Assembly: GCF_037975245.1 (NCBI RefSeq)
Contig: NC_092566.1
Location: 18,509,001 to 18,573,000, forward strand
Length of the DNA: 64,000 nt
Origin: Apostichopus japonicus
Lineage: Eukaryota; Echinodermata; Holothuroidea; Aspidochirotida; Stichopodidae
Direction of reading: 5' to 3'
The notes below the pieces were generated by a model. That model did not search any database, was not told where the DNA came from, and was given only the letters and a program-made list of their open reading frames with translations. The translations under genes were made by a program, and so were the position numbers. Positions 4,501-49,900 of this stretch are shown in pieces; within the stretch, counting starts at the first letter, position 1, and each line of letters starts with the position of its first letter.

Positions 4501-7500
4501 GCATGGGGTCAGGAGAATTATGGGTTTTCTTTGTCAGAGATAGCTGCAGAGATAGCTGCTTTTGGTCAAATCCAAGTTAGTTGTAGCTTTTTCTCCACCA
4601 AATTTCAACTCAGTGATCAATTAAGTACCACCAGTCTTTATTACCATACTAGTGTTCCCCCTGGAACCAACCCGCCCATATAGTCCTGCGGGACTAGGTG
4701 GGCATATATAGGCAAAAATCTTATTTGATCTGTGCTACTGCCTTTCATCTTTATTACATCGAAATGAAAAATTGTAAGTGTATATATAGTCTTGGAAATT
4801 ACCAAAGTGGGCTACTATTGAACTCCAGTCCTAGTTCAGTGCATTGCTCAATAGCTTCCTCGTGATTCTGTAATCAAAGTCTTTATTCTTGAGACTTAAA
4901 AGCGCATAACGAATATAACAAACGGAACTCTAAGAAAACATTGGAAAAAATAATATAGCCAACAAATGAAAGAAACCTAGCTCTTGGATTCCAGTCCTTA
5001 TTCTGCTAAAGAGTCAGTGGCTCCCTTGAGCCTGTACATCAGCGACCAGTTTTTGTACGTTTGGCTTCACCTTTGTTACGGCCATCCGTAAGTCATTATG
5101 AATTGTGAGTTTGTTCCGGAACTTAGTTTTAATGTGCACAACGGCACTGAAAGTAGATTCTGCTAAGTATGTAGTTGCAAAAGGGATTATTGCTTTCTCC
5201 AAAGCGATCTTCGTTAAATTTGGGGCAATCAATGCTCCTTCAGCAATCCAGAATTTAGCATAGCCATGCCTTTCAAAATATCTTCTTTTGTTGATCGAGG
5301 ATTGAATTTCGATGAGTTCCTCCGCATCAGGAACATCTTCAAGTTTGGCACTAAATGGGTCAAGCACAAAACTATATTCATCTGCATCGGCAATATCTTC
5401 AAATCGTTCCAACATCTCAATTCGAAGAGCATTCAAGTGTGTCAATATAACAGTCTTCATTTCTGGTGTTAGTGATCTGTCTATGAAAAGTTCCGACAAC
5501 TCCTGGAACATACTGTAGTCATCCCTTTGTATCTTGTCACTCCAGAGTGAGAGTTTTCGGGTAAAAGCATCGACTGCCTGTTTACATGTTATGATGTTCA
5601 CAGATTCTCCCTGCAGCTTCATGTTCAGATTGTTATACTGGTCAAATATGTCGACAAGGTAAGCTAACTTGGTTTGAAAGTCGGCATTCAAAAATGCCTC
5701 GGCGTGATCACTCTTGATAACTTCTCTGAGCATTTCAAGAACGCTGGCCCGCAGTTCGAATAGCCGCGCAAGCGTTCTTCCCCTTGAGAGCCACCTCACT
5801 TCTGTATGAAGCAGGAGAGTTGTGTGCTCTTCGTCGTTTTCTTCGCATAATTTCTGGAACACTCTTGAGTTAAGCGCTTTTGCTTTGATCTCGTTGATCA
5901 CCTTGACACTTGTCTGAAGTACATCGTGGAGTTCAGGAGAGAGTTTCTTGGCAGCCAGAGCTTGTCTGTGGATCATGCAGTGTATTATCTTGCAATGAGG
6001 AGCAACGCCTTTCAATCGCGCGGTGAATCCACGATGTTTACCCATCATTGCCGCTGCCCCATCCGAGCAACATGCGACCAAATTGGTGTACGAAATTCCT
6101 TTTTCCTGGAAATATCCATCCACTGTTTCGAAAATATCTTCACCTCTCGTGGTTGTGTCAAGGTTGGAGGAAAACAGCAAGTCTTGATTCACCTCACCGT
6201 CAGTCGCGATGTACCGTACACATACGAGGAGAAGAGCTTCATTTGTTATGGTCGTTGTCTCATCTAACTGTATAGCAAATTTGATTTCCTTCAGTATGTC
6301 TACCAATTGTTTTTCACAATCGTTCGCCATACTGTCGATCCTACGTTTAACAGTGTCATTCGATAGAGGCACATTCTTTATCTTCTCTGCGGCATTTTTT
6401 CCGCACAAAAGCGACACAACATCAATTAAAACCGGTTTGAGCAATTCCTCCCCAATACTATGTGGCTTTTTGGCCTTCGCTATGGCCAGACTTGCTATGT
6501 ACGACGCCTCCGTGCACTTTTCCAGCTCCGAAGTACATTTCCTGAAAGCAGTATCAATGGTGGCTGGTCTTCTTGCCAAATACAGCTCCATTTTCCTCTG
6601 CAAAAATACACGAATACACAACAGTGGTTCCTAGCGGTTTATCAATCCTTTCTAATTAGATTTTTATGTCACACAATACTTCATGAACATTAATGATATT
6701 AGGTTCTAGCTAGGCCCCACCCCCTCATTGATATGCGTAAAACTAAATGAAACATAATTATACACCCACTACACTGCAAACTCAGGCGTTCAACTTTTGA
6801 ACAATTGAATGTAGCAGATATAGAACGCGTTCTGGCCTTGAAAACATATTTTGAACGCTAGTTTTAAGATTCTGAACACTCTGACGCGTTCAAAATTTGA
6901 ACACCATCGGGAAACTTTGACGAAATCGGGAAAATGACCGTTCCGTTAATAACCTCCTCCCCCACCCCCTGAGAAATGAACCTAGATACGCCACTGAACA
7001 TAGAGCTACTGTTACACTGTTCATTAACTGAACGGCACTGCTGTAATTCGCTACGTGTTTATTCATTACACGCTTGCAGCTGTTCGTGAGTTACTGTTAT
7101 AACAATTAGGTTGGGACATCAAAGATATAGAAGTGAAAATATATGTCAATAACTGTCAGTCAAAGAGTGAAGTGTTATAGTTATCAGTTACTTACATTGA
7201 AATATTCAATGTCATGATTCCTCGAACCACCATGCTTCGTTTCCAGGTGCCGCTGCATCTTCGAGGGTTTCATTGCATCGTTGCTCAACACCTCGCCACA
7301 TAAGAAACATTCCGGTTTATTTTCATCAAATTGGGACTTGATAAATCCAAATTTGACGTATTCCTTCTTGTAACATCGAAGCTTCTGCTTCCCTCTTGAA
7401 TCGCGTTTAGACATCGCGGTAGTTAAGTTAACCAGTTATCCATGTGTTCTGCACGAAGCTACTGTATTGTGTAGTCACTGATCTTGAGTGTAGTGTGTAA

Positions 7501-10500
7501 CAATGTAAGTTGTGTTTCAACATTAGGACAACGCACTTAGCGTGGTAGCCTATACTGCCGCACACAGTCTGATTTTGCTAGCAGGTACAGCTGTTAGATC
7601 GAAGTCGCATGTGATTGGACAGTGCAACGTCGCTTATAACTACCGCGCTTCACTGTGTCAACAGTGAGCAACGCATCATAGTTATTGCTCTGCATATTAA
7701 GATGTATAGTTTGCAGTTACGTTGTACACAACACTCACACATACCTCACCGAATGTATACCAATGAGAAACTATATTACTTGTTTTCATCGGGGAACTCA
7801 CGATTCAACATTTATCGACTACTGACGAATCGATACGGTCTGATCATCAGGGTCCGACGTATTGACGGCTAGCCTAGCCTAGATTTCTAGAGGCATACGG
7901 TACATACTTCTTCATTCGACTATATCTCTCATTCCATTTTTCACAAACCTCTTCGTTCTTCGCGGACCCTTATTTTTTTCACGGACCCTTATTTTTTTCG
8001 CGGACCCCCTGCGGACCCCTTTGCCCTCACGGACCCCCAAATGAATTTCACGGACCCCCTAGGGGTCCGCGGACCCCAGGTTGAGTAACCTGGATCTAGA
8101 ATATAACATGTGTGGATTGAATATCACTGAACTTTAAATTAAACAGTCAGGGAGGGCCATGTACAGATAACAAGTGTAGATTTAGAATAAAACTGCTTTC
8201 CAACTTGTAATTTTAGCTTTCTATTGACTTATTAATTATGTATTTCTTTGTCATAGTTATGGATGTAGTGGGATAATTCTGCATTACGTGGTATTGATAT
8301 TCAGTGTGTGTGTGTGTGTCTTTGATTCTATAGATTTGTTAGCCAGTTTAAGTCAAACAGATGATGAGGAGACATCAAGTTCTACACAGTCAGATTCTCC
8401 TAGCCAGCCTGGTTCTGCACCAGGAAGCCCAAAGGTGCGGCGCCGAAGCAAACACCAACCAGAGGAGCAGGAAGTCAATGGGGATGCAGCAAGAACATAT
8501 ACTGATCAACAACTAAATGATGTCAATAGGTATGAGCAGAGAATACTACCTTAGCTCAGGATTCATGAATGCTGTATTTATTCAAATGACAGAATTGTAG
8601 CAAAATATGCCAAAGATTGAACAAAGGTTTAATAGGTTGAGATAGTTTGAATTTACAGTATGTAACTACTGTACTATACTGGTGACTATATATTGTAGTC
8701 TGCAGTACAGGTTATACTTTGACAGTGAAGACTATAATTTGTAAGTAAAGACTATACTTTGACAGTACATTCTATGCTTTGACAGTAAAGACTATACTTT
8801 GACAGTGAAGACTATACTTTGACAGTACATTCTATACTTTGACAATAAAGACTATACTTTGACAGTACATTCTATGCTTTGACAGTAAAGACTATAATTT
8901 GTAAGTAAAGACTAGATAAGTACTTTGACAGTACATTCTATACTTTGACAGTGAAGACTATACTTTGACAGGGTAGACTATGCTTTGACAGTGAAGACTA
9001 TACTTTGACAGTGAAGACTATACTTTGACAGTACATTCTATGCTTTGACAGTGAAGACTATTATTTGACAGCAGTGTGTAAAGTTGTGAGGAATCATGAG
9101 TAGCTTTATGGATCTTCATATCCAGTTACTCATTGTTTAACTAGACTATCAGTGCTGGTGGACATATCAGTGAGTTAAGCTATCACATCAAACTTGTATT
9201 CTTTGTGTAAAACCCTTTAACTTTCTTATAATCCCTCCACAGAATAAAACAATGCAAAGATTTCTATGAAATATTAGGGATACCGAAAGATGCCAGTGAT
9301 GTTGACGTGAAGAAAGCCTACCGTAAACTTGCCCTACAATTTCACCCTGATAAGAACCATGCTCCTGGTGCTAGCGAGGCCTTCAAAGGTATGAGTACTG
9401 TAATTAACATTAAGTGTTCTATCTTTCTATCATTATTAATGAACTTTTCTTAATGTTTCAAATATATCATATGAGAAGTTAATGATAGTGTCTGTTATGT
9501 GACTGGGTTTCTCTTCTATGGATGTGGAAATGAGTTATCCAAAGCAGCTAGGAAATCATGGCTAGTTTAAAGGCCTCCACCGCATTAACTTCATCATGTG
9601 TAAAGCCTTATAAAAAGTATTGAATAATAATTGTTTATCTTGCAGCCATTGGAAAGGCATTTTCAGTTTTAAGTGATACCACAAAGAGGAAAAGATATGA
9701 CATGTATGGGAATGAGGAGGAGAATGTTCAAGTCCACAGACCTAGAAGACAGTACTATCATCATAACGGCTTTTACTATGAGACCAGAGGATTTGATGAT
9801 GGTATGTACCTCTCTTTAAGAGTAAACTTATAAGAGTATATTGGTAACTAGAGGATTTGATGATGGTACATGTACCACTCTTTAAGTGTAACTTAAAGGA
9901 GTATATATTGGTAACTGGAGGATTTGATGATGGGTTTTACCTCTCTTTAAGAGTAATTTAAAGGAGTATATATTGGTAACTAGAGGATTTGATGGAGTAT
10001 ACCTCTACTTAAGGGTAAACTTTAAGGAGTATATTGGTAACTAGAGGATTTGATGATGGTATGTACCTCTCTTTAAGAGTTAACTTAAATGAGTATATAT
10101 TGGTAACTACAGGATGTGATGATTGCATGTACCTCTCTTTAAGAGTTAACTTAAAGGAGTTTATGTTCGTAACTAGAGGATTTGATGATGGGTTTACCTC
10201 TCTTTAAGAGTAATTTAAAGGAGTTTATATTGGTAACTACTAGAGGATTTGATGATTGCATGTACCTTTCTATAAGAGTTAACCTAAAGGAGTTTATGTT
10301 TTTAACTAGAGGATTTGATGATGGTATGTACCTCTCTTTAAGAGTAAACTTAAAGGAGTATATTCGTAACTAGAGGATTTGATGAAGACAATATAAAATA
10401 TGTGGCTCAGATCTGGTGTGCCTCTATAAGGTTAACAAGCAGTGATGATATTGAGAATCCAATAAAAATATTTCACTTGCTTCATTAATTTGCAGATGAC

Positions 10501-13500
10501 TTCTCAGCTGAGGATTTATTCAACATGTTCTTTGGAGGTGGAATGCCTTCAGATAGGGTGTATGTAAGACGGAGACAAAGAGGACATCATCACAACGCAC
10601 ACCATATACACCATGATCGCAGTAATGGGGTAAGTACATGCACTACACACACCAAATACATCATGATCACAGTAATGGGGTAAGTACATGCACAACACAC
10701 ACCATATACATCATGATCACAGTAATGGGGTAAGTACATGCACAACACACACCATATACATCATGATCACAGTAATGGGGTAAGTACATGCACAACACAC
10801 ACCATATACAACATGATCACAGTAATGGGGTAAGTACATGATAGCAGTAATGGGGTAAGTTCATGCACAACACCCACCATATACATCATGATCGCAGTAA
10901 TGGTGTAAGTACATGCACAACACACACCATATACATCATGATCGCAGTAATGGGGTAAGTACATGCACAACACACACCATATACATCATGATCGCAGTAA
11001 TGGGGTAATTACATGCACAACACACACCATATACATCATGATCGCAGTAATGGGGTAAGTACATGCACAACACACACCATATACATCATGATCGCAGTAA
11101 TGGGGTAAGTACATGCACAACACACACCATATACATCATGATCGCAGTAATGGGGTAAGTACATGCACAACACACACCATATACATTATGATCGCAGTAA
11201 TGGGGTAAGTACATGCACAACACACACCATATACATCATGATCGCAGTAATGGGGTAAGTACATGCACAGCACACACCATATACATCATGATAGCAGTAA
11301 TGGGGTAAGTACATGCACAACACACACCATATACATCATGATCGCAGTAATGGGGTAAGTACATGCACAGCACACACCATATACATCATGATAGCAGTAA
11401 TGGGGTAAGTACATGCACAACACACACCATATACATCATGATCGCAGTAATGGGGTAAGTACATGCACAACACACACCATATACATCATGATAGCAGTAA
11501 TGGGGTAAGTACATGCACAACACACACCATATACATCATGATCGCAGTAATGGGGTAAGTACATGCACAACACACACCATATACATCATGATCGCAGTAA
11601 TGGGGTAAGTACATGCACAACACACACCATATACATCATGATAGCAGTAATGGGGTAAGTACATGCACAACACACACCATATACATCATGATCACAGTAA
11701 TGGGGTAAATACATGCACAACACACACCATATACATCATGATCGCAGTAATGGGGTAAGTACATGCACAACACACACCATATACATTATGATCGCAGTAA
11801 TGGGGTAAGTACATGCACAACACACACCATATACATTATGATCGCAGTAATGGGGTAAGTACATGCACAACACACACCATATACATCATGATCGCAGTAA
11901 TGGGGTAAGTACATGCACAGCACACACCATATACATCATGATAGCAGTAATGGGGTAAGTACATGCACAACACACACCATATACATCATGATCGCAGTAA
12001 TGGGGTAAGTACATGCACAACACACACCATATACATCATGATAGCAGTAATGGGGTAAGTACATGCACAACACACACCATATACATCATGATCGCAGTAA
12101 TGGGGTAAGTACATGCACAACACACACCATATACATCATGATCGCAGTAATGGGGTAAGTACATGCACAACACACACCATATACATCATGATAGCAGTAA
12201 TGGGGTAAGTACATGCACAACACACACCATATACATCATGATCACAGTAATGGGGTAAGTACATGCACAACACACACCATATACACCATGATCGCAGTAA
12301 TGGGGTAAGTACATGCACAACACACACCATATACATCATGATAGCAGTAATGAGGTAAGTACATGCACAACACACACCATATACATCATGATAGCAGCAA
12401 TGGGGTAAGTACATGCACAACACACACCATATACACCATGATCGCAGTAATGGGGTAAGTACTTGCACTACACACACCATATACATCATGATAGCAGCAA
12501 TGGGGTAAGTACATGCACAACACACACCATATACATCATGATCGCAGTAATGGGGTAAGTACATGCACTACACACACCACTACACACACAATAAATCCAT
12601 GTTCTCAGAGGATAAAATATCTTTAAAAGTATATATTTTCTAATAAGCTTTATATGTTTATAATCTATTTATCTAGATAATGTATATAATATAATAAGCT
12701 ATATAATCATTGCCAGTGAACCCTTGTTTTAGAGTACACCAACTCTAATATGAAAGTGTCTCAGATTCAGCATTTGAGTATGTCAGTCAAATGACTTAAT
12801 TGTTGCTCGTTACAGTACTTTTGGTGAAATCGGCAGAGTAGACTCTTCATCTTGGCTGGAGAACTTCTGGCTAAATAAATACTTAGATAAATTTAGCAAC
12901 ATAATGCAGAAAGCTGCATATAGAAATCCACACATTGGCATGGATTGTGTTTGCTAGAAGATGGTTCACACAACATTTGTGATTAACATGAGCAGAGGAG
13001 GTAATTGCATTTGATGTGTATTTATTTCTCTTCTGCAGACAAACGCATACTTCATCCAGGTACTCCCTATTCTAGTTCTATTGGCAATATCACTGATATC
13101 AGCCCTGCTGGTACAAGACCCTTCCTTCAGTTTAAGAAGATCTCAGTAAGTACTCCCACAGTCTCTCTATCTCTCTCTGATAGTATAATGCAACTTCATT
13201 CCACTTACCAGCTATCTACTTACTAGTGCTATAGCAATAGCTACATGTTAAACTATAGGTTAGACTTGGTACATCTGACAACATGGTAGGCTAAGTAATG
13301 ATTTGTTTGTTTTCAAAGGTATCAAATAATTCTAAGATAATGAAGAGCTCTTGAGATATGCCTACCTCAAACCATATAACAACTTTTGTTGAAGTATGTG
13401 TGTTACCAAATGATGGTATGTTGCCAGATAAAATGACTACAAGGGATCTCAAAACATTGTTTCATGATGGAAATGTTTCTAATGTTTAGATTGTATTGCA

Positions 13501-15971
13501 TATGTTGACATAGGAGCATTATTTGTACTCTTGAAGACGTGTAGGAATAGAGCAGTATGACTGGACAGGAATCAAATTTAAAGTATGCTGACATACAGTT
13601 ATATGTAAGCTTTCCCTCCTCCAAACAACATATACTCTGTACAGTTATATGTAAGCTTTCCCTCCTCCAAACAACATATACTCCATACAGTTATATGTAA
13701 GCTTTCCCTCCTCTGAACAACATATACTCCATACAGTTATATGTAAGCTTTCCCTCCTCTGAACAACATATACTCCATACAGTTATATGTAAGCTTTCCC
13801 TCCTCCAAACAACATATACTCCATACAGTTATATGTTAGCTTTCCCTCCTCCAAACAACATATACTCCATACAGTTATATGTAAGCTTTCCCTCCTCCAA
13901 ACAACATATACTCCATACAGTTATATGTAAGCTTTCCCTCCTCCAAACAACATATACTCCATACAGTTATATGTAAGCTTTCCCTCCTCCAAACAACATA
14001 TACTCCATACAGTTATATGTAAGCTTTCCCTCCTCCGAACAACATATACTCCATACAGTTATATGTAAGCTTTCCCTCCTCCAAACAACATATACTCTGT
14101 ACAGTTATATGTAAGCTTTCCCTCCTCCAAACAACATATACTCCATACAGTTATATGTAAGCTTTCCCTCCTCCGAACAACATATACTCCATACAGATAT
14201 ATGTAAGCTTCCCTCCTCCAAACAACATATACTCCATACAGTTATATGTAAGCTTTCCCTCCTCCAAACAACATATATTCTGTACAGGTTTCCCTCCTCC
14301 CAACAACATATATTCCAAGTAAACAAATTTCTTGATACTCAGTTACAAGGATTACAATTAGCGGAGCAACAATCTTACAAGTGGTGAGAACACTAACTAT
14401 GTGTCTTATGACTTCACAAGTTAACAATAGCATATTGTACTTATATGTTTCTACTATTATCACTCTTGTTGCAGAGCATACATCAATGAAAGGATAACAT
14501 CTAAGGGCAACATAAAATATTATGTTAAGGTAAGAACAACGTCCATTTATTCTCTTCATTGTCAAGCTCTGGTCCAATAGCTTCAGTGTAGTAATTCCTA
14601 TGAGTACTGCAGATTTTACTTTCCTTAACATCTCCCAAATCTCCAGAAATATCTTCTGTCTGAGTACTCGCTGGACCTGCTCGTTTGCAGAGAATTGACA
14701 TAATACACTATATACTTGGTAACAATTGTTAATGAATAATCATCATTGGTTAAATCATCAACAACTGTGTTTGGTTGAGCTCACTAAAAGCTACATAAAG
14801 CTTTGTTCCTTGATATGATTAAGGTGAACCTTATTCGTTCAAAATGTTGTGTTAATATGTTAGCACTTTCTATTGCAAATTAAAATATTTTCTGGTACGT
14901 AAATAATAGCACACTCTAGGTATAAGGTAAAGCCCAATGCAACTGTCATGGAGTCGTATGACAAAGAGTTGATTTGTGTAGTGGGCATTCAAAAGGTCAC
15001 GTACATACGGTCTGGGGGCATGGCTAGGAGTGTAATGGAGTCTTATGACAGAGTTGATATGTGTAGTAGGCTTTCAAAAGGTCACATACATACGGTCTGG
15101 GGGCAATGGCAGCAGCACATTTTGTTTATGTTGTGTAATGTGTAACAAACTTGTCTTGTGGAACTATAATATCAATACAAAACAACAGCGATGTATTTTG
15201 TGTGTAGACTTTAGTGTGATGTCATTTTGCAGAGATAAACAGGCTTTGTATCTACAATATTTTATTTTCTCTTTTCTCTTGCAGAAAGACTTCCTGAAAA
15301 ATTATCAAGGAAGAGTGCACATGGTTGAACGTGAAGTTGAAAAAGAATATTTGCAACATTTACGAAGCTCATGTTATGAAGAAAAGTATAAAAGTAAGTG
15401 ATCTGTCATTCTGACGAGCAAGGAGATGATTTAAACCTTAAAACCTGTCATTTTAGAATTTGTCTCATTGATTGCGAGTATGTCATCCATCAATACATTT
15501 AAACAGCTTTTAAGTTGATTTTGCTCAATTTATATTTGACTCCACACAGAGTGTTCACGACAAAGTCAGTTCAGTAGCTTCACTAACTAATCATATTTCT
15601 ATTCCAAGTTATCAAGTCAAGTCAACCACTTCTGATACCTTGTCTGGGCGTAAAGGTGTTTTATAATTCATAATTGGAATCATTAATACTTACATTATCG
15701 GTGAAGATTTAGTGGATAAATTTCAAGTAGGATCATCAAGTGATTCCTCAGAATTTAGCTGACATAACAGGTATTAGTAAGATAAGTATGTTTAAACCGG
15801 GAAATTAATCACTGGTTTTCTCTTCTTTCTTCTTTGACTTTTGCAGAAGAAAATATGAAGCAAAGAGGACGTTATTTTGGTGATCGGAAATTATTTGAAG
15901 AAGGCAATAGAATGACGACACCATCTTGTGATAAATATACAGAAATATATAAGACTTTATCAGCTGGTTGA
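1566..15971 (+). CDS. DNAJB12: DNAJB12/DNAJB14-type ER-membrane J-domain co-chaperone, complete, 9 exons
   Basis: Exons: 1566-1698, 8334-8529, 9243-9388, 9646-9801, 10496-10629, 13039-13145, 14475-14529, 15285-15393, 15847-15971. They sum to 1161 nt (386 aa), all with GT/AG borders and consistent phase. The N-terminus ([18 protein letters not shown]) matches the helical N-terminus of DNAJB12/14. The J domain spans about residues 115-180, with HPD at 144-146 and RYDMYG closing it. A glycine- and histidine-rich linker follows, then one membrane helix at about 259-280 and a DUF1977-type C-terminal domain (VERE, RYFGD and TPSC motifs). Known family role: J domain in the cytosol recruits Hsp70 for membrane-protein quality control and ERAD. 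Length is close to the human proteins. DNAJB12 and DNAJB14 are vertebrate co-orthologues, so the symbol is approximate. Introns 1, 2, 4, 5 and 6 hold transposons or minisatellites. Confidence 0.93.
2671..3891. mobile_element. Non-autonomous hAT-like element (about 1.2 kb) in intron 1
   Basis: Terminal inverted repeats TAGTGATGGGAA (from 2679) and its complement TTCCCATCACTC (to 3883) are flanked on both sides by the direct repeat GGTTACAC (2671-2678 and 3884-3891). An 8-bp target duplication is typical of hAT elements, and this one fits an nnnTAnnn pattern. The interior is AT-rich with only short open frames (minus strand, 3066-3272 and 3469-3687) that I do not recognise, so it looks transposase-free. 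It lies upstream of the larger hAT element in the same intron. Confidence 0.75.
4124..8093 (-). mobile_element. Full-length autonomous hAT transposon inside intron 1 of the J-protein gene
   Basis: The element carries a two-exon BED-finger/hAT transposase on the minus strand, antisense to the host gene. Its ends are imperfect inverted repeats (left CCTAGGTTCTCAACCT, right complement CCAGGTTACTCAACCT), bordered by a shared GATCTAGAA (4116-4124 and 8093-8101) that contains the expected 8-bp target duplication; the exact edge is ambiguous by one or two bases. Both subterminal regions are rich in GGACCCC-type motifs: 4151-4193 on the left and 7970-8082 on the right, where repeats of CACGGACCC occur. 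Size is about 3.97 kb. A short G/C-rich stretch at 4205-4250 lies near the left end. No obvious internal disruption is visible. Confidence 0.85.
5014..7414 (-). CDS. hAT-family transposase with N-terminal BED zinc finger (ZBED5/FAM200-like), two exons, apparently intact
   Basis: Exon 1 runs 7414 to 7196 (donor AAT|GTAAGT) and exon 2 runs 6597 to 5014 (acceptor TTTTTGCAG|AGG). Both are phase 0 and give 600 aa. Exon 1 holds a BED finger: a C-x2-C pair (CFLCGEVLS) and HLETKH. Exon 2 shows the hAT RNase-H-like core. Candidate acidic residues are D185 (QLDETT) and D252 ([10 protein letters not shown]). They are followed by CMIHR, by the VRWLSRG motif (W342), and by the C-terminal dimerisation block with the candidate catalytic E553 (YLAESTFS) and IKTKFRNKL. 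Family knowledge: such proteins cut and paste hAT DNA, and domesticated relatives exist in vertebrates (ZBED5, FAM200). No frameshift or stop was found. It sits between matching terminal repeats, so it is more likely a recent transposon than a domesticated host gene. Confidence 0.88.
8700..9072. repeat. Minisatellite in intron 2 of the J-protein gene, about 20-bp unit
   Basis: About 18 diverged copies of a unit like ACTTTGACAGTGAAGACTAT, alternating with a variant ending in GTACATTCTAT, so a roughly 40-bp dimer is also visible. It lies wholly inside intron 2 (8530-9242) and does not resemble the flanking exons. Confidence 0.85.
9784..10387 (+). repeat. Exon-junction-derived minisatellite filling intron 4 (units about 60-70 bp)
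   Basis: About ten tandem units, of which the first is the real exon 4 end and donor. Each unit starts with AGAGGATTTGATGATG, the last 16 bases of exon 4 (encoding R-G-F-D-D), continues through a GTATGTACCTCTCTTTAAGAG-like donor region and ends in GGTAACT. At least two downstream copies (near 10053 and 10320) keep the exact exon/donor junction GATGATG|GTATGT. Others have lost it (GTACAT, GTTTTA, GCATGT). The repeat has therefore copied the exon 3' end and the splice site together. Confidence 0.88.
10585..12571 (+). repeat. 50-bp minisatellite in intron 5 repeating the exon 5 end plus its splice donor
   Basis: The unit is 50 bp and repeats the last coding bases of exon 5 (CACCATATACACCATGATCG and CAGTAATGGG) followed by GTAAGTACATGCACAACACA. 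Donor positions run 10630 (the real one), 10680, 10730, 10780, 10830 and 10855 (one short 25-bp unit), then every 50 bp to 12555, about 40 in all. By eye nearly all are exact GTAAGT; clear exceptions are 11005 (GTAATT) and 11705 (GTAAAT). Copies are almost identical, with a recurring variant at ATCGCAG/ATAGCAG/ATCACAG, so amplification looks recent. Read in the exon's frame, the array meets TAA at the start of the second unit. Confidence 0.93.
13594..14313. repeat. 46-bp minisatellite in intron 6 of the J-protein gene
   Basis: About 15 copies of a 46-bp unit beginning ACAGTTATATGTAAGCTTTC and continuing CCTCCTCCAAACAACATATA. Each unit contains a donor-like ATGTAAGC and a pyrimidine-rich run. 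Unlike the arrays in introns 4 and 5, the unit does not match the end of exon 6. Minus-strand open frames across it are by-products of the repeat. Confidence 0.9.
14948..15110. repeat. Two-copy direct repeat in intron 7
   Basis: A unit of about 85 bp starting ATGGAGTCGTATGACA is present twice (near 14948 and 15033). The copies share GTAGTGGGC/GTAGTAGGC, a CAAAAGGTCAC core and TACATACGGTCTGGGGGCA. The short open frames over it are not conserved genes. Confidence 0.7.
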
Positions 15972-24591: not shown

Positions 24592-24623
24592 ACATACACA
24601 CCAGCATTACTTTCTAAAATCCT

Positions 24624-27600
24624 CTAGCTGACTTGAAACTCTGAAGAGGTTCCTTGGTAAGATAGAATATTTCCATCCACATGTTTACTATCACCAAAGT
24701 GACTTATCCTGTAGGTACCAGATGGAGCATCTTGTGGTATATCCCATCTAACAGTAACCTCACTGTGACCCAAAATAGTACTGGTGCGTGTCCAGATAAA
24801 CCTGCCAATGACAACAAGAATAAGATCAAATTACAAACATTAATTGACTGAGAGTTCACTCAACTGAACAACAAAGTCTGGTTAGTAAATACAGAGCAGG
24901 TAAAAACATGACACATGACATACCACCAGGCAGGTACAGACATGACATCACAAACCACCAGGCAGGTACAGACATGACATGACATACCACCAGGCAGGTA
25001 CAGACATGACATCACAAACCACCAGGCAGGTACAGACATGACATCACAAACCACCAGGCAGGTACAGACATGACATCACAAACCACCAGGCAGGTACAAA
25101 CATGACATCACATATCACCAGGCAGGTACAGACATGACATCACATATTACCAGGCAGGTACAAATATGACATCACAAACCACCAGGCAGGTACAGACATG
25201 ACATCACATATCACCAGGCAGGTACAGACATGACATCACATATTACCAGGCAGGTACAGATATGACATCACAAACCACCAGGCAGGTGCAGATATGACAT
25301 CACATATCACCATGCAGACAGGTACAGACATGACATCACATATCACCATGCAGGTACAGACATGACATCACATATCACCAGGCAGGTACAGACATGACAT
25401 CACATATTACCAGGCAGGTACAGATATGACATCACAAACCACCAGGCAGGTGCAGATATGACATCACATATCACCAGGCAGGTACAGACATGACATCACA
25501 TATCACCATGCAGGCAGGTACAGACATGACATCACAAACCACCAGGCAGGTACAGACATGACATCACATATCACCAGGCAGGTACAGACATGACATCACA
25601 TATCACCAGGCAGGTACAGACATGACATCACATATTACCAGGCAGGTACAGACATGACATCACATATTACCAGGCAGGTACAGATATGACATCACAAACC
25701 ACCAGGCAGGTACAGACATGACATCACATATCACCAGGCAGGTACAGACATGACATCACATATTACCAGGCAGGTACAGATATGACATCACAAACCACCA
25801 GGCAGGTGCAGATATGACATCACATACCACCAGACAGGTACAGACATCACATCACATATTACCAGGCAGGTACAGATATGACATCACAAACCACCAGGCA
25901 GGTGCAGATATGACATCACATATCACCAGGCAGGTACAGACATGACGTCACATATCACCAGGCAGGTACAGACATGACATCACATACCACCAGGCAGGTG
26001 CAGATATGACATCACAAACCACCAGGCAGGTACAGACATGACGTCACATATCACCAGGCAGGTACAGACATGACATCACATACCACCAAGGCTTGAACCA
26101 AGCAGGTATTCATGAACAAAGGTCTATGATGCATTTATATAACTAGCTACACCGACCATAAACTAACAACCTATCACCTCCAAATAGCTTACCTTGTTGA
26201 CCAATCTGCATCTGTGTAAATAGTTTTGAATTCTCCAGATATGGAGTCTTTTAAATCCACCGACAAGAAAGTTTCACCGAGCTGTGTGATATAATGTACA
26301 AAATGACAAGTTAGCTTCACTATAGTCTCTGTTTGTGCGGTCATAGAACGAAGACTAACCCAGTGATGTACAATTCACTTATTCCTTAATGATGACATCT
26401 GGATGACACTTACATTCTTTACTGACTCAAGGCAGTTAATACTCAACCAAGAGCTTTAAACACTTACACCTTCATTATGACGTCTGGATAACACTAATAT
26501 TATTCTCTACTGACTTAAGGCAATTAATACTCAAGCAAGAGCTTTTAACACATGTATTTGTTTCAGTACACAATATCTCTACAAAGCTGATATAACCTCA
26601 CAAGTCTCTCAGACCTGTGTTATTATGCTACTGTATCTAGATAGCATGGACTCACCCGTAGGTTATTGCGAGGGTTACCAGCTCTGAAGGTGACTTCTAC
26701 AATGTCTGATCCCTGCAGTAAGAAGAAGACAAAACATGCACAGTGAGAGTTCTCATCTAATGACAGCTATCAATAGAATAAATTACAATCAACTAATTGA
26801 TTTTTTTTACAAGAATAAGGACACCCCAAGCTTGAATTTCTAAGAGTCAACAATCATGAGGGAAATGTGAGTAAAGAGCACAAGAAAGCTTACAATGAGT
26901 TCAGATTAACTAGTCAAATCGAGTACCTTGGGGTGTAACAAGTCAAATCGAGTACCTTGGGGTGTAACAAGTCAGATCGAGTACATTGGGGTGTAACAAG
27001 TCATATCGTGTACCTTGTGGATTACCAATTCAAATTGAGTACCTTGTGGATTTAATACCAAGTCAAATTGTATACCTTGTGGTGTAACAAGTCAAAATGA
27101 GTACATTGTGGATTACCAAGTCAAATTGAATACCTTGTGAATTACCAAGTCAAATCGAGTACCTTGTGGATTACCAAGTCAAAATGAGTACCTTGTGGAT
27201 TACCAAGTCAAATTGAGTACCTTGGGGTGTAACTAGTCAAATCAAGTATCTTGTGATGTAACAAGTCAAATCGAGTACCTTGTGGATTATCAAATCAAAG
27301 TAAGTATGTTGTGGTGTAACAAGTTAAATCAAGTACCTTGTGGATTACCAAGTCAAATTGAGTACCTGCAGGTAGTTACTGCATGCATTATATTGCACCA
27401 TAATATGAAGTGACTTTTGATGACTGTAGTGCATTACTCTGCTCATAGAGAGTGTTGTGGTCAAGTGGTTAAAGGACTTGTGTGATCTAAGGATTGCAGG
27501 TTCAAGTCCTGGCCAGATCATTGCATTGTGTCCTTGGGCAAGGCACTTTATCTCCATTGCCTCTCTTCAACCAGGTGTATAATTTGGGACCTGTGAGATA

Positions 27601-30600
27601 AAACTGTCAGCTGGGCGCTGTTTAGCTGCTGCCATGTGGAGGGATTGTCTCTATGTTTGACAGGTTATGGTTGACCGGGTAATATTGTAAAGCGCTTGGA
27701 GCCTTTAGGGAAGGCGCTATATAATTTAAGAAATTATTATTATATTATTTAGTCTTTGTGGCAAAGACTCACCTTTTTGTACGGCACATTATTTACGTCT
27801 TTAAGGACATCTCCAAAGTTGGTGAATGGAGGAACACCGTCAAATAAAACAGGTGGAAGAAATGTGAGTTGTTTACTCAGCAAATTTGGGGGTGTAGGTC
27901 CTGCTGGTAGACTTGATCCCTAAGAGAGAGACAGGGAACTTTTGTGAATGTAGTCATGGTATAAAAGTATATCAAAGATGTTTTACATATTTACATAAAC
28001 ACGGTATTCCAAACACCACCCATCTGAAATATGATTTAAATTAGTCCCTTTTACACATCACATATATGTAGTTTAGTTGATTTTTTTGGCAAGAGTTAGG
28101 AAGCTTACAGAAGCAGATTTGAACCATATCTCTATGTGATAATCTTGGATAACACTGACTTATAGCAAGCCTTGGTTATTCATTTAGTGTTCAGAGAATT
28201 ATGGAGGCAGGGTTGTAACTGACGCAAGAGAAGCATCTCCCTGATGGGGTTGTAGCGTGAACAGTCTAACTGATACAATCTCTATTCACCTACAAGCTAG
28301 TTTTACCATCTCCCTGGTGGGGTTGTAGCGTGAACAGTCTAACTGATACAATCTCTATTCACCTACAAGCTAGCTTTACCATCTCCCTGATGGGGTTGTA
28401 GCGTGAACAGTCTAACTGATACAATCTCTATTCACCAACAAGCTAGCTTTACCATCTCCCTGGTGGGGTTGTAGCGTGAACAGTCTAGCTGATACAATCT
28501 ATATTCACCTACAAGCTAGCTTTACCATCTCCCTGGTGCGGTTGTAGCGTGAACAGTCTAACTGATACAATCTCTATTCACCAACAAGCTAGCTTTACCA
28601 TCTCCCTGGTGCGGTTGTAGCGTGAACAGTCTAACTGATACAATCTCTATTCACCTACAAGCTAGCTTTACCATCTCCCTGGTGCGGTTGTAGCGTGAAC
28701 AGTCTAACTGATACAATCTCTATTCACCTACAAGCTAGCTTTACCATCTCCCTGGTGCGGTTGTAGTGTGAACAGTCTAGCTGATACCATCTCTATTCAC
28801 CTACAAGCTAGCTTTACCATCTCCCTGGTGGGGTTGTAGCGTGAACAGTCTAACTGATACAATCTCTATTCACCAACAAGCTAGCTTTACCATCTCCCTG
28901 GTGCGGTTGTAGCGTGAACAGTCTAACTGATACAATCTCTATTCACCTACAAACTAGCTTTACCATCAACCTGGTGCGGTTGTAGCGTGAACAGTCTAGC
29001 TGATACAATCTCTATTCACCTACAAGCTAGCTTTACCATCTCCCTGGTGGGGTTTTAGCGTGAACAGTCTAACTGATACAATCTCTATTCACCTACAAGC
29101 TAGCTATACCATCTCCCTGGTGCGGTTGTAGCGTGAACAGTCTAGCTGATACAATCTCTATTCACCTACAAGCTAGCTTTACCATCTCCCTGGTGGGGTT
29201 GTAGCGTGAACAGTCTAGCTGATACCATCTCTATTCACCTACAAGCTAGCTTTACCATCTCCCTGGTGGGGTTGTAGCGTGAACAGTCTAGCTGATACAA
29301 TCTCTATTCACCTACAAGCTAGCTTTACCATCTCCCTGGTGGGGTTGTAGCGTGAACAGTCTAGCTGATACAATCTCTATTCACCTACAAGCTAGTTTTA
29401 CCATCTCCCTGGTGGGGTTGTAGCGTGAACTGTCTAGCTGATACAATCTCTATTCACCTACAAGCTAGTTTTACCATCTCCCTGGTGGGGTTTTAGCGTG
29501 AACAGTCTAGCTGATACAATCTCTATTCACCTACAAGCTAGTTTTACCATCTCCCTGGTGGGGTTGTAGCGTGAACAGTCTAGCTGATACAATCTCTATT
29601 CACCTACAAGCTAGTTTTACCATCTCCCTGGTGGGGTTTTAGCGTGAACAGTCTAGCTGATACAATCTCTATTCACCTACAAGCTAGCTTTACCATCTCC
29701 CTGGTGGGGTTGTAGCGTGAACAGTCTAACTGATACAATCTCTATTCACCTACAAGCTAGCTTTACCATCTCCCTGATGGGGTTGTAGCGTGAACAGTCT
29801 AACTGATACAATCTCTATTCACCAACAAGCTAGCTTTACCATCTCCCTGGTGGGGTTGTAGCGTGAACAGTCTAGCTGATACAATCTATATTCACCTACA
29901 AGCTAGCTTTACCATCTCCCTGGTGCGGTTGTAGCGTGAACAGTCTAACTGATACAATCTCTATTCACCAACAAGCTAGCTTTACCATCTCCCTGGTGCG
30001 GTTGTAGCGTGAACAGTCTAACTGATACAATCTCTATTCACCTACAAGCTAGCTTTACCATCTCCCTGGTGCGGTTGTAGCGTGAACAGTCTAACTGATA
30101 CAATCTCTATTCACCTACAAGCTAGCTTTACCATCTCCCTGGTGCGGTTGTAGTGTGAACAGTCTAGCTGATACCATCTCTATTCACCTACAAGCTAGCT
30201 TTACCATCTCCCTGGTGGGGTTGTAGCGTGAACAGTCTAACTGATACAATCTCTATTCACCAACAAGCTAGCTTTACCATCTCCCTGGTGCGGTTGTAGC
30301 GTGAACAGTCTAACTGATACAATCTCTATTCACCTACAAACTAGCTTTACCATCAACCTGGTGCGGTTGTAGCGTGAACAGTCTAGCTGATACAATCTCT
30401 ATTCACCTACAAGCTAGCTTTACCATCTCCCTGGTGGGGTTTTAGCGTGAACAGTCTAACTGATACAATCTCTATTCACCTACAAGCTAGCTTTACCATC
30501 TCCCTGGTGCGGTTGTAGCGTGAACAGTCTAGCTGATACAATCTCTATTCACCTACAAGCTAGCTTTACCATCTCCCTGGTGGGGTTGTAGCGTGAACAG

Positions 30601-33600
30601 TCTAGCTGATACCATCTCTATTCACCTACAAGCTAGCTTTACCATCTCCCTGGTGGGGTTGTAGCGTGAACAGTCTAGCTGATACAATCTCTATTCACCT
30701 ACAAGCTAGCTTTACCATCTCCCTGGTGGGGTTGTAGCGTGAACAGTCTAGCTGATACAATCTCTATTCACCTACAAGCTAGTTTTACCATCTCCCTGGT
30801 GGGGTTGTAGCGTGAACTGTCTAGCTGATACAATCTCTATTCACCTACAAGCTAGTTTTACCATCTCCCTGGTGGGGTTTTAGCGTGAACAGTCTAGCTG
30901 ATACAATCTCTATTCACCTACAAGCTAGTTTTACCATCTCCCTGGTGGGGTTGTAGCGTGAACAGTCTAGCTGATACAATCTCTATTCACCTACAAGCTA
31001 GTTTTACCATCTCCCTGGTGGGGTTTTAGCGTGAACAGTCTAGCTGATACAATCTCTATTCACCTACAAGCTAGCTTTACCATCTCCCTGGTGGGGATGT
31101 AGCGTGAACAGTCTAGCTGATACAATCTCTATTCACCTACAAGCTAGCTTTACCATCTCCCTGGTGGGGTTGTAGCGTGAACAGTCTAACTGATACAATC
31201 TCTATTCACCTACAAGCTAGCTTTACCATCTCCCTGGTGGGGTTTTAGCGTGAACAGTCTAACTGATACAATCTCTATTCACCTACAAGCTAGCTTTACC
31301 ATCTCCCTGGTGGGGTTTTAGCGTGAACAGTCTAACTGATACAATCTCTATTCACCTACAAGCTAGATTTACCATCTTCACAGGTAAAGCAATAATGTAA
31401 AATGCAATCCTTTTCCTTTCTTGAACATTTTACCTTTTTCAGAGCCTTGGAGAGCTTTTCATACTGGTTCAGGTAAGCTTGTAATGTGTGAGGACCATAA
31501 ATGGTTGATGCACCCTCATACCTTTGCACCTGTGGAAGCAGATTACAAATGCCATACATTTAGTTTCCTTTAAAACAACATATTTGTATCACATGTAATC
31601 TAGGACATCAGGAAAAGTTTCGTTCTGATAAACATTTGACACACTAAACTACAAAATGCAGTTCCACTCTATCTGAAGAAAGAAATTCTAAATACTAAAA
31701 TATAAGAACTTTAATACAGTTGAAACATTGTATGTACCTTTAATCAACCCAGCCATACCCTGACTCGATATTCATATATAGAAAATAACAGTATGATATC
31801 TGCAATGATGAACAAATCATAAACAAATAATGGAACTGAGAGTTCTTCTCTATCAAACTAAGCCTGTTCCACTAACTGATCAGTAGAGGCTTACTAGCTG
31901 GGTCTACTATACCATCAGCTGAGGATTTTCTCTCTGTGGATTATGTCTTAAAGTATTCTTTTATAGTGAGGCCAAGCTACCTAAGGGAAGAATAATTCTC
32001 TGCCACTAATATCTCACCTGGTATTCTTCATACGTGGTTATATAATCACTGTATGTGTTTGACAGACCAGCAATAACTGTAAACAGACTCTCTTCTGATT
32101 TTAGAGCCTAGAAAAGCAAATGTAATAAAAAGAAAGTAAAAGGCTTCTAATAATAGAAGTTTTCTTATATCCTTTTTTGTAACCCTTTCTCTATATTTTT
32201 TATTTTCCAAAGCTTCTTCCTCCAAGACTAAAGGTTGACAATGGCAATTTCTTTTGATATATTTGACAATTCTTCATGGCAAGTCTATAGCAACCACATA
32301 ACTTCTATTCTCTCAACTGCCTTTTTTATTGGTTATGATGGTTGCATATTGTAACAACAACAGCCTTTGTATTGGTTATGATGGTTGCACACAATAACAA
32401 CAGCCTTTGTATTGGTTATAATGGTTGCACACAATAACAACAGCCTTTGTATTGGTTATGATAGTTGCACACAATAACAACAGCCTTTGTATTGGTTATG
32501 ATGGTTGCACACAATAACAACAGCCTTTGTATTGGTTATGATGGTTGCACACAATAACAACAACTTCCCTTGTATTGGTTATGATGGTTGCCAACAATAA
32601 CAACAACAGCCTTTGTATTGGTTATGATGGTTGCCCACAATAACAGCAACAGCCTTTGTATTGGTTATAATGGTTGCACACAATAACAACAGCCTTTGAA
32701 TGGGTTATGATGGTTGCACACAATAATCACAACAATGGCCTTTGTATTGGTTATGATGGTTACATACAATAACAACAACAGCCTTTGTATTGGTTATGAT
32801 GGTTGCCCACAATAACAGCAACAGCCTTTGTATTGGTTATAATGGTTGCACACAATAACAACAGCCTTTGAATGGGTTATGATGGTTGCACACAATTATC
32901 ACAACAATGGCCTTTGTATTGGTTATGATGGTTACATACAATAACAACAACAGCCTTTGTATTGGTTATGATGGTTGCCCACAATAACAACAACAGCCTT
33001 TTTATTGGTTATGATGGTTGCCCACAATAACAACTGCCTTTGTATTGGTTATGATGGTTGCCCACAATAACAACTGCCTTTGTATTGGTTATGATGGTTG
33101 CACACAATAACAACAACAGCCTTTGTATTGGTTATGATGGTTGCCCACAATAACAACAACAGCCTTTTATAAGGTTATGATGGTTGCACACAATAACAAC
33201 AACAGCCTTTGTATTGGTAATGATGGTTACAATAACAACAACAGCCTTTGTATTGGTTTTGATGGTTGCACACAATAACATGATTATACTGTCACAAGTA
33301 CAGTGTATAAATGAATGTGAGTAACTAGTTGAAATAAAGATTTAACATAGCTAGATCTTGATTAAAGGAGTTGTTCAATTAACAAATTACCTTCTTGACA
33401 GTATTTATCATTCTTCGTCCAGACATGGTCCTGTTAAATATGATAAAGAGAAATTAAGAAGCAAAGTTTAGTCTCGAGATGGATCCTGAAATTAATCTTT
33501 GACTGTATCTGTGTACTTCTCCTGGTTATATTAACTTGTCAATACATAAACCAACTGAAGAGAAACCATTTGACTTGTGACAAAGCACTTTATCAATAAT

Positions 33601-36600
33601 TTAGGGACTAAAGACTTAAATCAAATTCATAGGTATTGCAAATAAACCATTAACCAAAAAGTAAACCCTCACGTGAATTCTCCAGGCACTGGAATAATGA
33701 CAAGCTGTCCAACTTTCAGCAGCATGGTGTCCACAATGTTGGGTGTCCATGAATATGGAAAAGTGGTCTGGAAACAAGAAATAGAAATGCTAACAGATAT
33801 TTTAAGGCTTAATTCATCACCTGAAAGCTCTCTTCGACTACGAGGCATAATTCTTAGCATGTGAGTGACCACCACCAAGTCCCGCTCCAAGTCCCGCTAA
33901 CAAATCTGCTCAACCGTGAGTTAAACATTGATATTGAGAGGCAAATACTGATGAAGTTAAACCTCAAATATATAAAGAAGAAAACCTTCACCTGGTGGCG
34001 ATAGCCATGTAATTTTTCAAACTGTAACTTGAAGGGTCAAGAGGTTATCAAACATTACACATAAACAAAAGTAGTTCCTAATACTTCTGCTTGGTAACAA
34101 TCTTTATTCAGCCCTTCCCAGTCTGCAATTCACAAGTTGAGGACAAACTTTGGTTTGTAGGAATTACATACATGAGGTTGTATAGACTTTAACTCTACAA
34201 ATTCAAACCAAGGAAGTATGCTAGCTATAACTCCACTCATTTACCCTTCCATGACTGACTCTAAACGTACCTCTCCTGTTGCTAGCAGAATTGGCTTTGG
34301 CTTCTGACATTCAATAAGTTCCTTGGATGGTTTCTTGATCAAATTCGTTATTAAATTCCAAAAAGGGTTCGATGATGTTGTTCCTGATAAAGAGAGAATA
34401 TAAGAATTAGCATCATTACAAAATAATGTTGTGGTAACCATGGCAACACATAATACTGATGGCAGCAACATCACCACATAAAGGACTAAGTCTTTGGTAT
34501 GTATGACATGCAATACACTCCTAAGTTTAAGAGATTGATAATATAAATCTGTGATAGGGTAAGCTCTATAATGTTACAACTGAGTATGAATAATGACAAC
34601 ATATATTAGTAAAGGAACAAAGAGGTAGGCATGAAAAAAACTGGTTCTTTCTTAGCAAACATTAAATATTCACAAGAAGATTTGAGAAATATTGGTTAGA
34701 ATTATTGGGGAAGTCCTTACAATAATAATAATATCAGCTTAACCATTGAAAAACACATTGCAAATTATTTTTCTTTCAGTGGATGCCCAAAAAATTCTTG
34801 GCATATTGCCAGTATTTTCACAAAATTTTTTTTCTTACGCCTTTACACATGAGAATCCTACCTTGTGTGAAATCAAAGGCCCCTGGACCGTCTGTTGTGC
34901 CTGCTGCAAAGCTGTAGCCCATGGATGGTTTACAAGTTTTACCCTAGCAAATAAAATTGAAAACTTGAATCAATGCAAATCATTAAGATCAGAGTGATAG
35001 CCGTCCCAGTGGTTACTTACCTTTGAGGAAACTTAAAACCAGCATTCAGTTGCTAATTATGAAGGAAATTGTTAAAAATACAAATTATTACTCACAGCAA
35101 GCAATCAATAAATCACTTGTTGTTAGAATTAAATATACCATGTAGGGTTAGAGTATGGCCAATCCCTAACCCCCTACCAGCATCCATATTATAACTGTTA
35201 AAATCAGTTGAAAATACACTTAGAAGTTAGCAATACCATTAAGGGTTAAGTGTTTGACTAACAACAATGTTAATTGTTATAATCAGTTGATATTAGTGAT
35301 CATGTTTGGCATGGCATCAGTGTTAATTGCTATAATCAGTTGCTGCATTACTAATTTTATCCTTCCCTCATTGAGTGGTGTGGTATTAACCTTGGTAATA
35401 TCCACCTTAAGTTTTTGTATAGTTTTCTCAAACTTCAATGATGTTCATGAAAGAAGAATTTACTCCTTTGCCAAAATAGAAAGGACAGTTTGACAATATG
35501 AAGTCAGAGGAAACTGAAATGGATGGAGGACTCAGGACAGATACACAGCCAAGAACTGTTAATGTTTTAAATCCTGTCACATAGCAAAAAATATTAGACA
35601 GATCAATTACTTTGAGATAATGTTGCTACATTAATGTTACTAAAACTAAGCTTCCTCCGGCAATGGGTCAACTTTCATTTCATGTTTACAGCTGCAACAT
35701 GAAGGTCAGTCAATCTATGGGACTCAGTGGCTCATAATTATCTACTATTTTTTAAGAGAACTGTTAATGTTTGGGAAATACTGGGCAAGTAAGTTGACCA
35801 TAGTGCTAATTGTCTTAATAATAAGTTTATTAATTACTGATGTATGGTCCAGAGACTTTGTGACAATTTCTAGAGAGAAACTAAGACATAGTGATTTTAT
35901 GGCATAAGTACAGTTACCATTACAAAGACACTGTAAACATCAAACACTCGGTCTACGCTCACTGGACTTGTACAAATCAAAATAGACAAATACAAATATA
36001 GCTTACAGAACACCTAGTAACTTACAGAATATGAAGCATTGTAAGGCACGGTGACGTTGGTCATATCAACAAACTGATGAATGGAAGAAACAGGGCCAGT
36101 CAGACGGAATCCACCTTCATTCCACAGACCCTGCAAATGTAGAGAAGTTGAATCTTAAAGGTCAGCAAAATCATACAGATCTTATAACTGATTAAAACTA
36201 TTCAAAAGTCATGGATAAGTTTGTTTGAAATGGGGAAGGATAGTAATAAAGTACTTTGTAAAATCAACTTTAGATTAATTTCTGGTTAACAACGAAAAGA
36301 TATTAACAGTTATTTCACATACAAGTGTATCATCCAGCATTACACATTATAAAGAGGGGTTATTTGAACACACTTGACTTGTAGTGTGGGTTAAGGGGTA
36401 ACCAAGATTGTGGTGAGTAGGGGTGGGGGTTAGATGAGCTCTCTTGACTTGTAGTGTGGGTTAAGGGGTAACCAAGATTGTGGTGAGTAGGGGTGGGGGT
36501 TAGATGAGCACTCTTTGAGTTGTAGTTTGCATTAAGGGGTAACCAAGATTGTGGTGAGTAGGGGTGGGGGTTAGATGAGCTCTCTTGACTTGTAGTGTGG

Positions 36601-46504: not shown

Positions 46505-46794
46505 AAATCAAGAGATTGAAACATTTTACCCTGGTTTTTCATCACTGACATAAAAGTTAACAAAAGATGGTTGTGTTGAGCTCTCTTTATGTTATGTATC
46601 CGTTAATTTATGTTTTTGCTATATCTCGTTTCAGAATGTGATTTCACATCCATCCAAGGTATTTTAGTATTAACATGAATACCCATAAGTGTCATAATTG
46701 TGCTATTTTAACATGGTTATTTCAATATCAAAGTTATGTAGTTAGTTCTATAGCTGTAGTGACATTGTTTAGTTTTTTGTTTAAACATGATATG

Positions 46795-47548: not shown

Positions 47549-47554
47549 TTGATC

Positions 47555-49023: not shown

Positions 49024-49263
49024 TGTAGGTATTAACAAACTCCATTCCCAAAGTACATACTACTGTAATTACATGTGCAATCAATAATAATATGTCAATA
49101 TTTTGAAACTAACTGACATTAGTCTCAACCTGAGACTTTTGTAATTGCTGGGTAAATTTAACAATGATAATGTTTTGTCTGTTGGTCTTGCCATGGATAT
49201 AATGAGCTTAAACATCCGTACTACCTCTCTAGATGTCGTAGTAGTAGTGTGGATCCCACTCAG

Positions 49264-49603: not shown

Positions 49604-49900
49604 AGTATTTGAAAGCCCAGTCAGTTCTGGCATACAGTTCATTATGGTGTGTAATGGTCTGGAATCTTCTTGTTGCAATTGGGCAATGACAGCCCACTCA
49701 GTTAAGGTATTGAAAGCCCAGTTAGTCCTGGCATGTTCATTGTGGTGTGTAATAGTCTGGAATCCTCTTCTTCCAATAGGGCAGTAACAGCCCACTCAGT
49801 TAAGGTATTGAAAGCCCAGTTAGTCCTGGCATGTTCATTGTGGTGTGTAATAGTCTGGAATCCTCTTCTTCCATTAGGGCAGTAACACCAATCCTCCCAA
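49604..49900. repeat. Short version of the 99-bp minisatellite (about three units)
   Basis: Homologous to 22025-22950 but with about three units of 90-99 bp. Overlapping minus-strand frames (49592-49994) are not genes. Confidence 0.85.

Follow-up and report, generated by a model that had tools for sequence, protein, structure and literature searches.

Intron 5 of a J-protein gene of the sea cucumber Apostichopus japonicus contains a 50-bp minisatellite with 40 copies of the exon 5/intron 5 junction, as established by TRF, pattern counting and alignment with the exon (10591..12587, + strand). We think it probable that this young minisatellite was born across the exon 5 donor and has been tolerated, the first donor being presumably the one used and leakage to later copies being presumably sent to NMD. 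The anatomy of the array and the reading frames behind its donors were observed directly.

The window analysed is a stretch of 64,000 nucleotides of contig NC_092566.1 (positions 18,509,001 to 18,573,000), in which the host gene lies at 8333..15970 on the + strand. Splice signals, open frame and Pfam matches define exons 2 (8333-8529), 3 (9243-9388), 4 (9646-9801), 5 (10496-10629, 134 nt), 6 (13039-13145), 7 (14475-14529), 8 (15285-15393) and 9 (15847-15970, holding the stop codon), all on the + strand; exon 1 was left out of the model. These exons have GT/AG boundaries, and a single frame stays open across exons 2 to 9, up to the stop codon. J proteins of the DNAJB12/DNAJB14 type combine a DnaJ domain and DUF1977 around a hydrophobic segment, and the translation contains all of these: DnaJ (9e-26, residues 72-133), DUF1977 (5.8e-24, residues 237-331) and a hydrophobic stretch of 20 residues recognized by eye. 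From these domains we take the gene to be DNAJB12/14-like. An Rfam search of the window at gathering thresholds gave no match.

The junction copies, counted with up to 4 mismatches allowed, consist of ATGATCGCAGTAATGGG followed by GTAAGT; they start between 10613 and 12538 and run to 12560. The sequence-only reading had announced about 40 donors at 50-bp steps, clearly damaged only at 11005 and 11705, and the recount agrees: GTAAGT is exact in 38 of the 40 copies, the two others being GTAATT (11005..11010, + strand, U1 duplex −6.3 kcal/mol) and GTAAAT (11705..11710, + strand, −6.5 kcal/mol). The spacing is 50 bp throughout, except for one 25-bp step (10813 to 10838). TRF reports 10591-10840 and 10837-12579 at period 50, with 96% matches each, and also 10591-12587 at period 150, so the array, correctly perceived at the outset, ends at about 12587 and not at 12571. 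Similarly, the end of exon 5 is indeed part of the unit, but over 39 nt by alignment instead of the 10 nt first given, followed by 11 nt of intron. The first copy of this exonic part is the last 39 nt of exon 5 itself (10591-10629, + strand, 13 residues), and the exon 5 copy agrees with the array consensus at all but 2 of 50 positions, which bears out the original proposal of a minisatellite born on an exon/intron junction. The array has the head-to-tail units, single unit length and high identity of a minisatellite, and its first unit overlaps both coding exon and donor, as in repeats at exon-intron boundaries. A search of the 671.6-Mb genome for the junction 16-mer returned 34 perfect matches, every one within this array, and 0 when it was read backwards; a DNA pattern of the 50-bp unit found no match in viral contigs. 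An acceptor hidden in the unit, which would imply recursive or micro-exon splicing, was also sought, and only a weak candidate appeared, a CAG 7 nt before the donor with a pyrimidine fraction of 0.55 versus 0.6-0.9 for the seven acceptors tested. An AATAAA lies directly after the array, at about 12590.

The copied donors are strong. When duplex energies are calculated with the conserved U1 5′ end, not with the U1 gene of this genome, the predicted authentic donor of intron 5 (GTAAGT, 10630..10635, + strand) reaches −11.7 kcal/mol and is the best match among the 7 modelled donors, the other six ranging from −5.6 to −9.5 kcal/mol. Among the 39 downstream array donors, 34 equal the authentic energy, in support of the view that the extra copies match the real donor, and 36 are at −10.3 kcal/mol or better. 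A pattern search for a U1 gene in the genome gave 0 matches. The frame, computed for each donor, ends in a premature stop for 39/39 downstream copies: donor 2 shifts the frame and leads to a stop 34 nt into exon 6, and the remaining 38 stop at a TAA (10681..10683, + strand) that is in frame when the first two donors are skipped. The predicted frame effects, including the claim that only the first donor gives full-length protein, are thereby confirmed. All 39 stops fall before the last junction, the nearest lying 237 nt upstream of it, so the resulting messages would likely be NMD targets. An RNA structure favouring the first donor was considered and rejected: in one 605-nt fold, its predicted accessibility (0.38) lies within the range of 9 other copies (0.26-0.62), and structure thus neither explains nor forbids its use.

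The alignment of units proposed in the sequence-only reading for scoring donor conservation revealed no excess in the donor columns, where 3 of 266 cells are variant versus 33 of 1634 in the other columns (Fisher p=0.47). Private substitutions even fall in the donor region in 4 of 8 cases (a post hoc count), contrary to protection of the donors. Truncation at every alternative site is a feature shared with regulated 5′ splice sites coupled to NMD (poison splicing). Selection keeping the extra donors, the other feature of that class, is not seen in this within-array test of one genome; the intact look of the copies reflects the youth of the array.

The same gene has a second, older donor-spanning array in intron 4, found by TRF and alignment (9786..10385, + strand), with a unit of about 66 bp composed of 16 nt of exon 4 and about 50 nt of intron, and with 10 anchors if the exon itself and a partial last one are counted. 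In contrast, no copy of the exon 6 donor was found in the 46-bp array that TRF detects in intron 6 (13592..14315, + strand). How fast arrays change in this genomic region is apparent from a duplicated ceramidase segment, whose copies share 92.9% identity over 6255 aligned bases, arrays excluded. According to TRF, their 43-bp arrays have 23.0 versus 7.0 copies and their 32-bp arrays 37.0 versus 52.0, and one ceramidase copy has a 73-bp array (43.1 copies) that the other lacks in the corresponding intron. Donor-spanning arrays were found at 0 of the 19 donors examined in the two ceramidase genes; the check extended to 10 acceptors, of which one (c2G) was placed approximately. The remaining matches of ceramidase junctions belong to the paralogous gene or are dispersed, with 5 of 24 positions mismatched (two for c1A, one for c1D).

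Elsewhere in the genome, donor-spanning arrays were found at 3 of 69 Pfam-matched exons, two of them independent and both in kinases, since L066 and L067 are near-identical paralogues counted as one event. The sample comprises 64 kinase and 5 DEAD exon matches picked by hand from 134 and 49 listed, many near-whole kinase-domain single-frame matches being left out, and the true donors are fewer than 69, because in some cases the open frame continues past the end of the match. TRF was also run on L063 (DEAD) and L039/L040, which are outside the count (L040 overlaps L043), and at L050, a related kinase locus, the matching exon is free of arrays to a distance of 80 nt. Judging by their motifs, we take the kinases to be MLCK/twitchin-like (C23:17717000-17722500) and CDK-like (C11, near 6.326 and 9.613 Mb). 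Random 40-nt windows fall in arrays at 5.9%, which gives 4.0 expected among 69; the donor count is therefore unremarkable (P(≤3)=0.43). Acceptor windows gave 1 of 69, a short T-rich tract (P(≤1)=0.089; P(0)=0.018), and exon bodies have 49 of 15498 bases in arrays versus 5.7% of all bases. In this small sample, arrays occur at donors at about background frequency and are depleted in exon bodies. Genome-wide, triple GGTAAGT arrays (537+468 matches) show no excess over the reversed pattern (798+428), with counts taken per match and dominated by few large arrays, so the arrays have no preference for donor-like sequence. The small sample suggests that comparable arrays have arisen at other genes of this genome; where donor copies were counted, in three arrays including that of exon 5, they number 12, 16 and 40. 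The sequence-only reading had missed such arrays in other genes, as well as the intron 4 array and the 39-nt exonic extent of the unit.

The array would have begun with a tandem duplication across the exon 5/intron 5 donor, likely seeded by an imperfect direct repeat between CACAACGCACACC in the exon tail and CACTACACACACC about 50 bp downstream in the intron; this seed is deduced from the two array ends, which agree at 12 of 15 positions. Slippage or unequal exchange would then have expanded and homogenized it, and an event of this type also took place at exon 4 and, as the small sample suggests, at other genes. The spliceosome most probably uses the first donor, because it completes the usual 134-nt exon (exon definition) and is the first to be transcribed. 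The copies behind it would mostly be silent U1-binding decoys, and leakage, most likely at +50, +100 or +150, would yield premature stops. We infer that such NMD-type buffering allows arrays to grow at donors and not inside exons. Classical experiments with duplicated, identical strong donors can favour the intron-proximal site; this precedent counts against first-donor use and would give very long truncated messages.

A different role was suggested by the sequence-only reading, namely that the array could tune the protein level. With about 40 donors in competition, a fixed share of the transcripts would be lost to NMD or would encode a soluble fragment that has the J domain but lacks the hydrophobic segment and DUF1977, perhaps according to array length. 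It is true that 34 of the 39 copies are as strong as the real donor and stronger than the other six modelled ones, and that every alternative is truncating. However, the donor columns are not conserved beyond the rest of the unit, and such arrays occur at unrelated genes at about background frequency, as tolerated mutation predicts; we therefore regard regulation as unlikely. The same lack of extra conservation speaks against the array being a platform whose many U1 sites would guard an A/T-rich intron against premature polyadenylation, for instance at the AATAAA that follows it, even if 36 of the 39 downstream copies have strong U1 complementarity. Such telescripting has been described for human, mouse and fly (PMC5499120), and we think it very improbable as an explanation here.

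The order of events might also be inverted, with the end of exon 5 recruited from a pre-existing intronic minisatellite. The repeated tail lies outside both Pfam domains of the J protein, which would permit it. In two kinase cases, however, the exonic part of the unit encodes ICYTL and QYTPIVVTLWYRAPELLL, respectively, both of them part of the Pfam kinase match, so in these cases the exon preceded the array; for exon 5 we consider the inverse order hardly likely. That an assembly artefact has inflated the repeat is extremely unlikely, as both scattered and shared variants occur among the units, along with one partial unit of 25 bp, and similar arrays with other units exist elsewhere in the genome. 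A young array, born on the donor and tolerated, is thus the reading that we prefer.

The closest known repeats are those of De Grassi and Ciccarelli (2009; PMC2812944), who describe variable internal tandem repeats where exons meet introns in segmentally duplicated human genes, with units averaging 30 bp repeated 4 times in recent paralogues, and link them to new introns and alternative transcripts. Ours are likewise minisatellites at such boundaries, able to alter splicing there, but with 12, 16 and 40 donor copies, in conserved gene families and anchored on an existing donor. Tandem genomic duplication is described as a source of introns (PMC2891723, PMC2809761), the title of the latter naming NMD as an enabler of intron gain; splice signals are copied in both situations, whereas here no new intron is evident and donors multiply without a convincing acceptor in the unit. 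Earthworm metallothionein genes also have long intronic minisatellites that differ between tandem gene copies (PMC12783039), and the extract of that report, unlike our case, makes no mention of a repeated exon end or donor. In a literature search at the level of titles and abstract openings, no report of minisatellites repeating a donor tens of times appeared. We see the array as a recurrent variant of the tandem repeats already known from exon-intron boundaries.

Most studies of how the spliceosome selects between identical 5′ splice sites have relied on two-site constructs. Here, several genes of one animal offer series of 12 to 40 nearly identical donors a constant distance apart, in which the length of the joined exon tells which copy was chosen; each is a natural multi-site competition assay. 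We would propose, only tentatively, a large class of donor minisatellites in which a few percent of exons end in arrays of tail plus donor, with up to tens of copies, surviving through reliable use of the upstream donor; donors would then be open to expansion in a way that exon bodies, and perhaps acceptors, are not. Should the class prove as frequent as this small sample indicates, donors tolerate a growth of repeats that exon bodies do not, and NMD together with exon definition may shape where minisatellites can live.

The genome amounts to 671.6 Mb in 35 contigs, and the window, 64,000 bases long with a GC content of 38.5%, has about 17,600 bases in tandem arrays (17,584 when the TRF output is merged by hand). 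The J-protein gene (8333–15970, plus strand) was modelled with eight exons, GT/AG introns and a single reading frame that stays open from exon 2 as far as the stop codon; in Pfam its protein matches DnaJ (9e-26) and DUF1977 (5.8e-24), from which we take the gene to be DNAJB12/14-like. A search of the genome with this protein gave matches of 84–93% identity, which are the gene's own exons, one own stretch spanning introns that aligned at 52%, and matches elsewhere of 35–58% identity. Exon 5 (10496–10629) is followed by the donor GTAAGT from 10630, which lies inside a minisatellite (10591–12587) whose unit joins the last 39 nt of exon 5 to 11 nt of intron. The sequence-only reading was right that the exon end had been copied, although it recognized the last 10 exon bases only. 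The array holds 40 junction copies including the authentic one, spaced by 50 bp throughout except for one 25-bp step. GTAAGT is exact in 38 of them, and the two damaged donors, at 11005 and 11705, are those already picked out by eye. Exact matches to the junction 16-mer number 34 across the genome, every one inside this array; read backwards, the 16-mer has none. Compared with the array consensus, the exon copy of the unit has 2 differences in 50 positions, and CACTACACACACCAC, found after the last donor, agrees at 12 of 15 positions with CACAACGCACACCAT, the start of the repeated tail. The array could plausibly have been seeded by an imperfect direct repeat on either side of the donor, spaced by about 50 bp.

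A second donor-spanning minisatellite (9786–10385, 10 anchors) opens intron 4 of the same gene with units of about 66 bp, the first of which covers the exon 4 end and its donor. Five later copies of the exon 4 junction lie within 5 mismatches of 24, and two are exact. Among the eight full downstream units, as read by eye from their alignment, GTATGT is kept in two, GC replaces GT in two and the site is otherwise altered in four; since so few units keep GTATGT, this array is older than that of exon 5. No tandem copies were found at the gene's five other donors, of which the exon 7 donor has one 5-mismatch match, at 61416, nor at any of its eight modelled acceptors. Intron 6 contains a 46-bp array (13592–14277) in whose consensus unit a pyrimidine-rich stretch and CAG are followed 6 nt later by GTAAGC; every unit could hold an acceptor and a donor. 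A minus-strand frame of 538 aa (5014–6630) runs uninterrupted and weakly matches the hAT dimerisation domain, with an E of 0.0011 that falls short of the Pfam cut-off.

The turnover of arrays can be judged from a tandem segmental duplication (24597–38654 and 52634–64000) that holds two minus-strand neutral ceramidase genes and shows 92.9% identity over 6255 aligned non-array bases. Paired arrays have 23.0 versus 7.0 and 37.0 versus 52.0 copies. A 73-bp minisatellite (28234–31377, 43.1 copies, 96% matches) occupies an intron towards the 3' end of copy 1; in 45501–64000, which holds copy 2, matches to its unit do not exceed 23 nt, and the corresponding intron place there (about 56935–56980) is some 45 bases without the array. 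Because the duplicated copies differ in array length and presence, arrays in this region turn over quickly. None of the 19 examined donors of these genes is tandemly repeated. Copy 2 also encloses a minus-strand RVT_1 reverse transcriptase fragment (61048–61545, 2.1e-7).

Exon ends elsewhere were sampled from Pfam kinase (64) and DEAD (5) exon matches, picked by hand from genome searches; a 40-nt window at the match end was counted when at least 15 bases lay in an array of period at least 10 and at least 2.5 copies. On the donor side 3 of 69 windows are in arrays, representing two independent events, and fewer than 69 true donors are covered because a match does not always end where its exon does. 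One is an MLCK/twitchin-like kinase (L049:2906–3406), with a 31-bp unit of 12 nt exon and 19 nt intron; its junction is present in 16 copies, of which 15 have GT at the donor position. The other comprises two near-identical CDK-like kinase loci on contig C11 (L066 and L067), with 70-bp units of 63 nt coding exon (QYTPIVVTLWYRAPELLLAIK) and 7 nt intron, the donor being present in nearly all of them; the first (L066 with L109) has 12 junction copies, GTGAGC in 11. In both cases the repeated exon tail falls inside the stretch matched by the Pfam kinase domain, so the array grew out of the exon. No array lies within 80 nt of L050, a related kinase exon. On the acceptor side a single window of 69 is in an array (L053); it was rejected as a junction copy, being a T-rich stretch made of 10-bp repeats immediately before the exon match. 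Random 40-nt windows from 20 large loci, the only source of this background, are in arrays at 5.9%, or 4.0 expected of 69, while exon bodies hold 49 array bases of 15,498 versus 5.7% of all bases, all 49 in the two CDK-like arrays (hand count). Thus, donors are near background and exon bodies far below it, and acceptors look low, with small numbers (P(<=1)=0.089, P(0)=0.018). Genome-wide, triple GGTAAGT is not in excess over its reversed control (537+468 vs 798+428 matches); therefore, arrays do not seek donors, nor do donors repel arrays.

Within the exon 5 array, compared column by column over 38 full downstream units (leaving aside the copy in the exon and the incomplete unit at 10855), no selection for the donors was seen: variant cells number 3 of 266 in donor columns (-1 to +6) and 33 of 1634 in the rest (Fisher p=0.47). 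Four of eight private substitutions do fall within -2 to +6 (p=0.027 against 8/50, post hoc); one (GAG|GTAAGT) is predicted to pair more strongly with U1 and the other three more weakly. As donor columns vary like the others, the intact donors reflect youth and homogenization.

Predicted U1 duplex energy, calculated with the conserved U1 5' end, is -11.7 kcal/mol for the authentic exon 5 donor and 34 of 39 copies, and -5.6 to -9.5 kcal/mol for the six other modelled donors; pairing is weaker at the other array donors (exon 4 -6.7, MLCK-like -7.3, CDK-like -9.6). The frame consequences anticipated earlier held: the second donor shifts the frame, with a stop 34 nt into exon 6, and the other 38 all stop at an in-frame TAA at 10681. 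For 39 of 39 downstream donors the stop lies at least 237 nt upstream of the last junction, which is a usual setting for NMD. Since GTAAGT contains TAA, an intact run whose period is not divisible by 3 meets an in-frame stop within three units; in the MLCK-like array it is reached at once. In predicted accessibility donor 1 does not stand out from the other copies. Exon definition, as donor 1 closes a 134-nt exon, and transcription order could favour it, but where constructs carry a duplicated strong donor, the intron-proximal copy can be preferred, which counts against the use of donor 1.

Tandem repeats at exon-intron boundaries are already described, in PMC2812944, for human segmental duplications with units averaging 30 bp and 4 repeats, sometimes giving new introns. 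No case with tens of intact donors in a row, recurring across conserved-family genes of one genome, was found in the portion of literature covered by the search.
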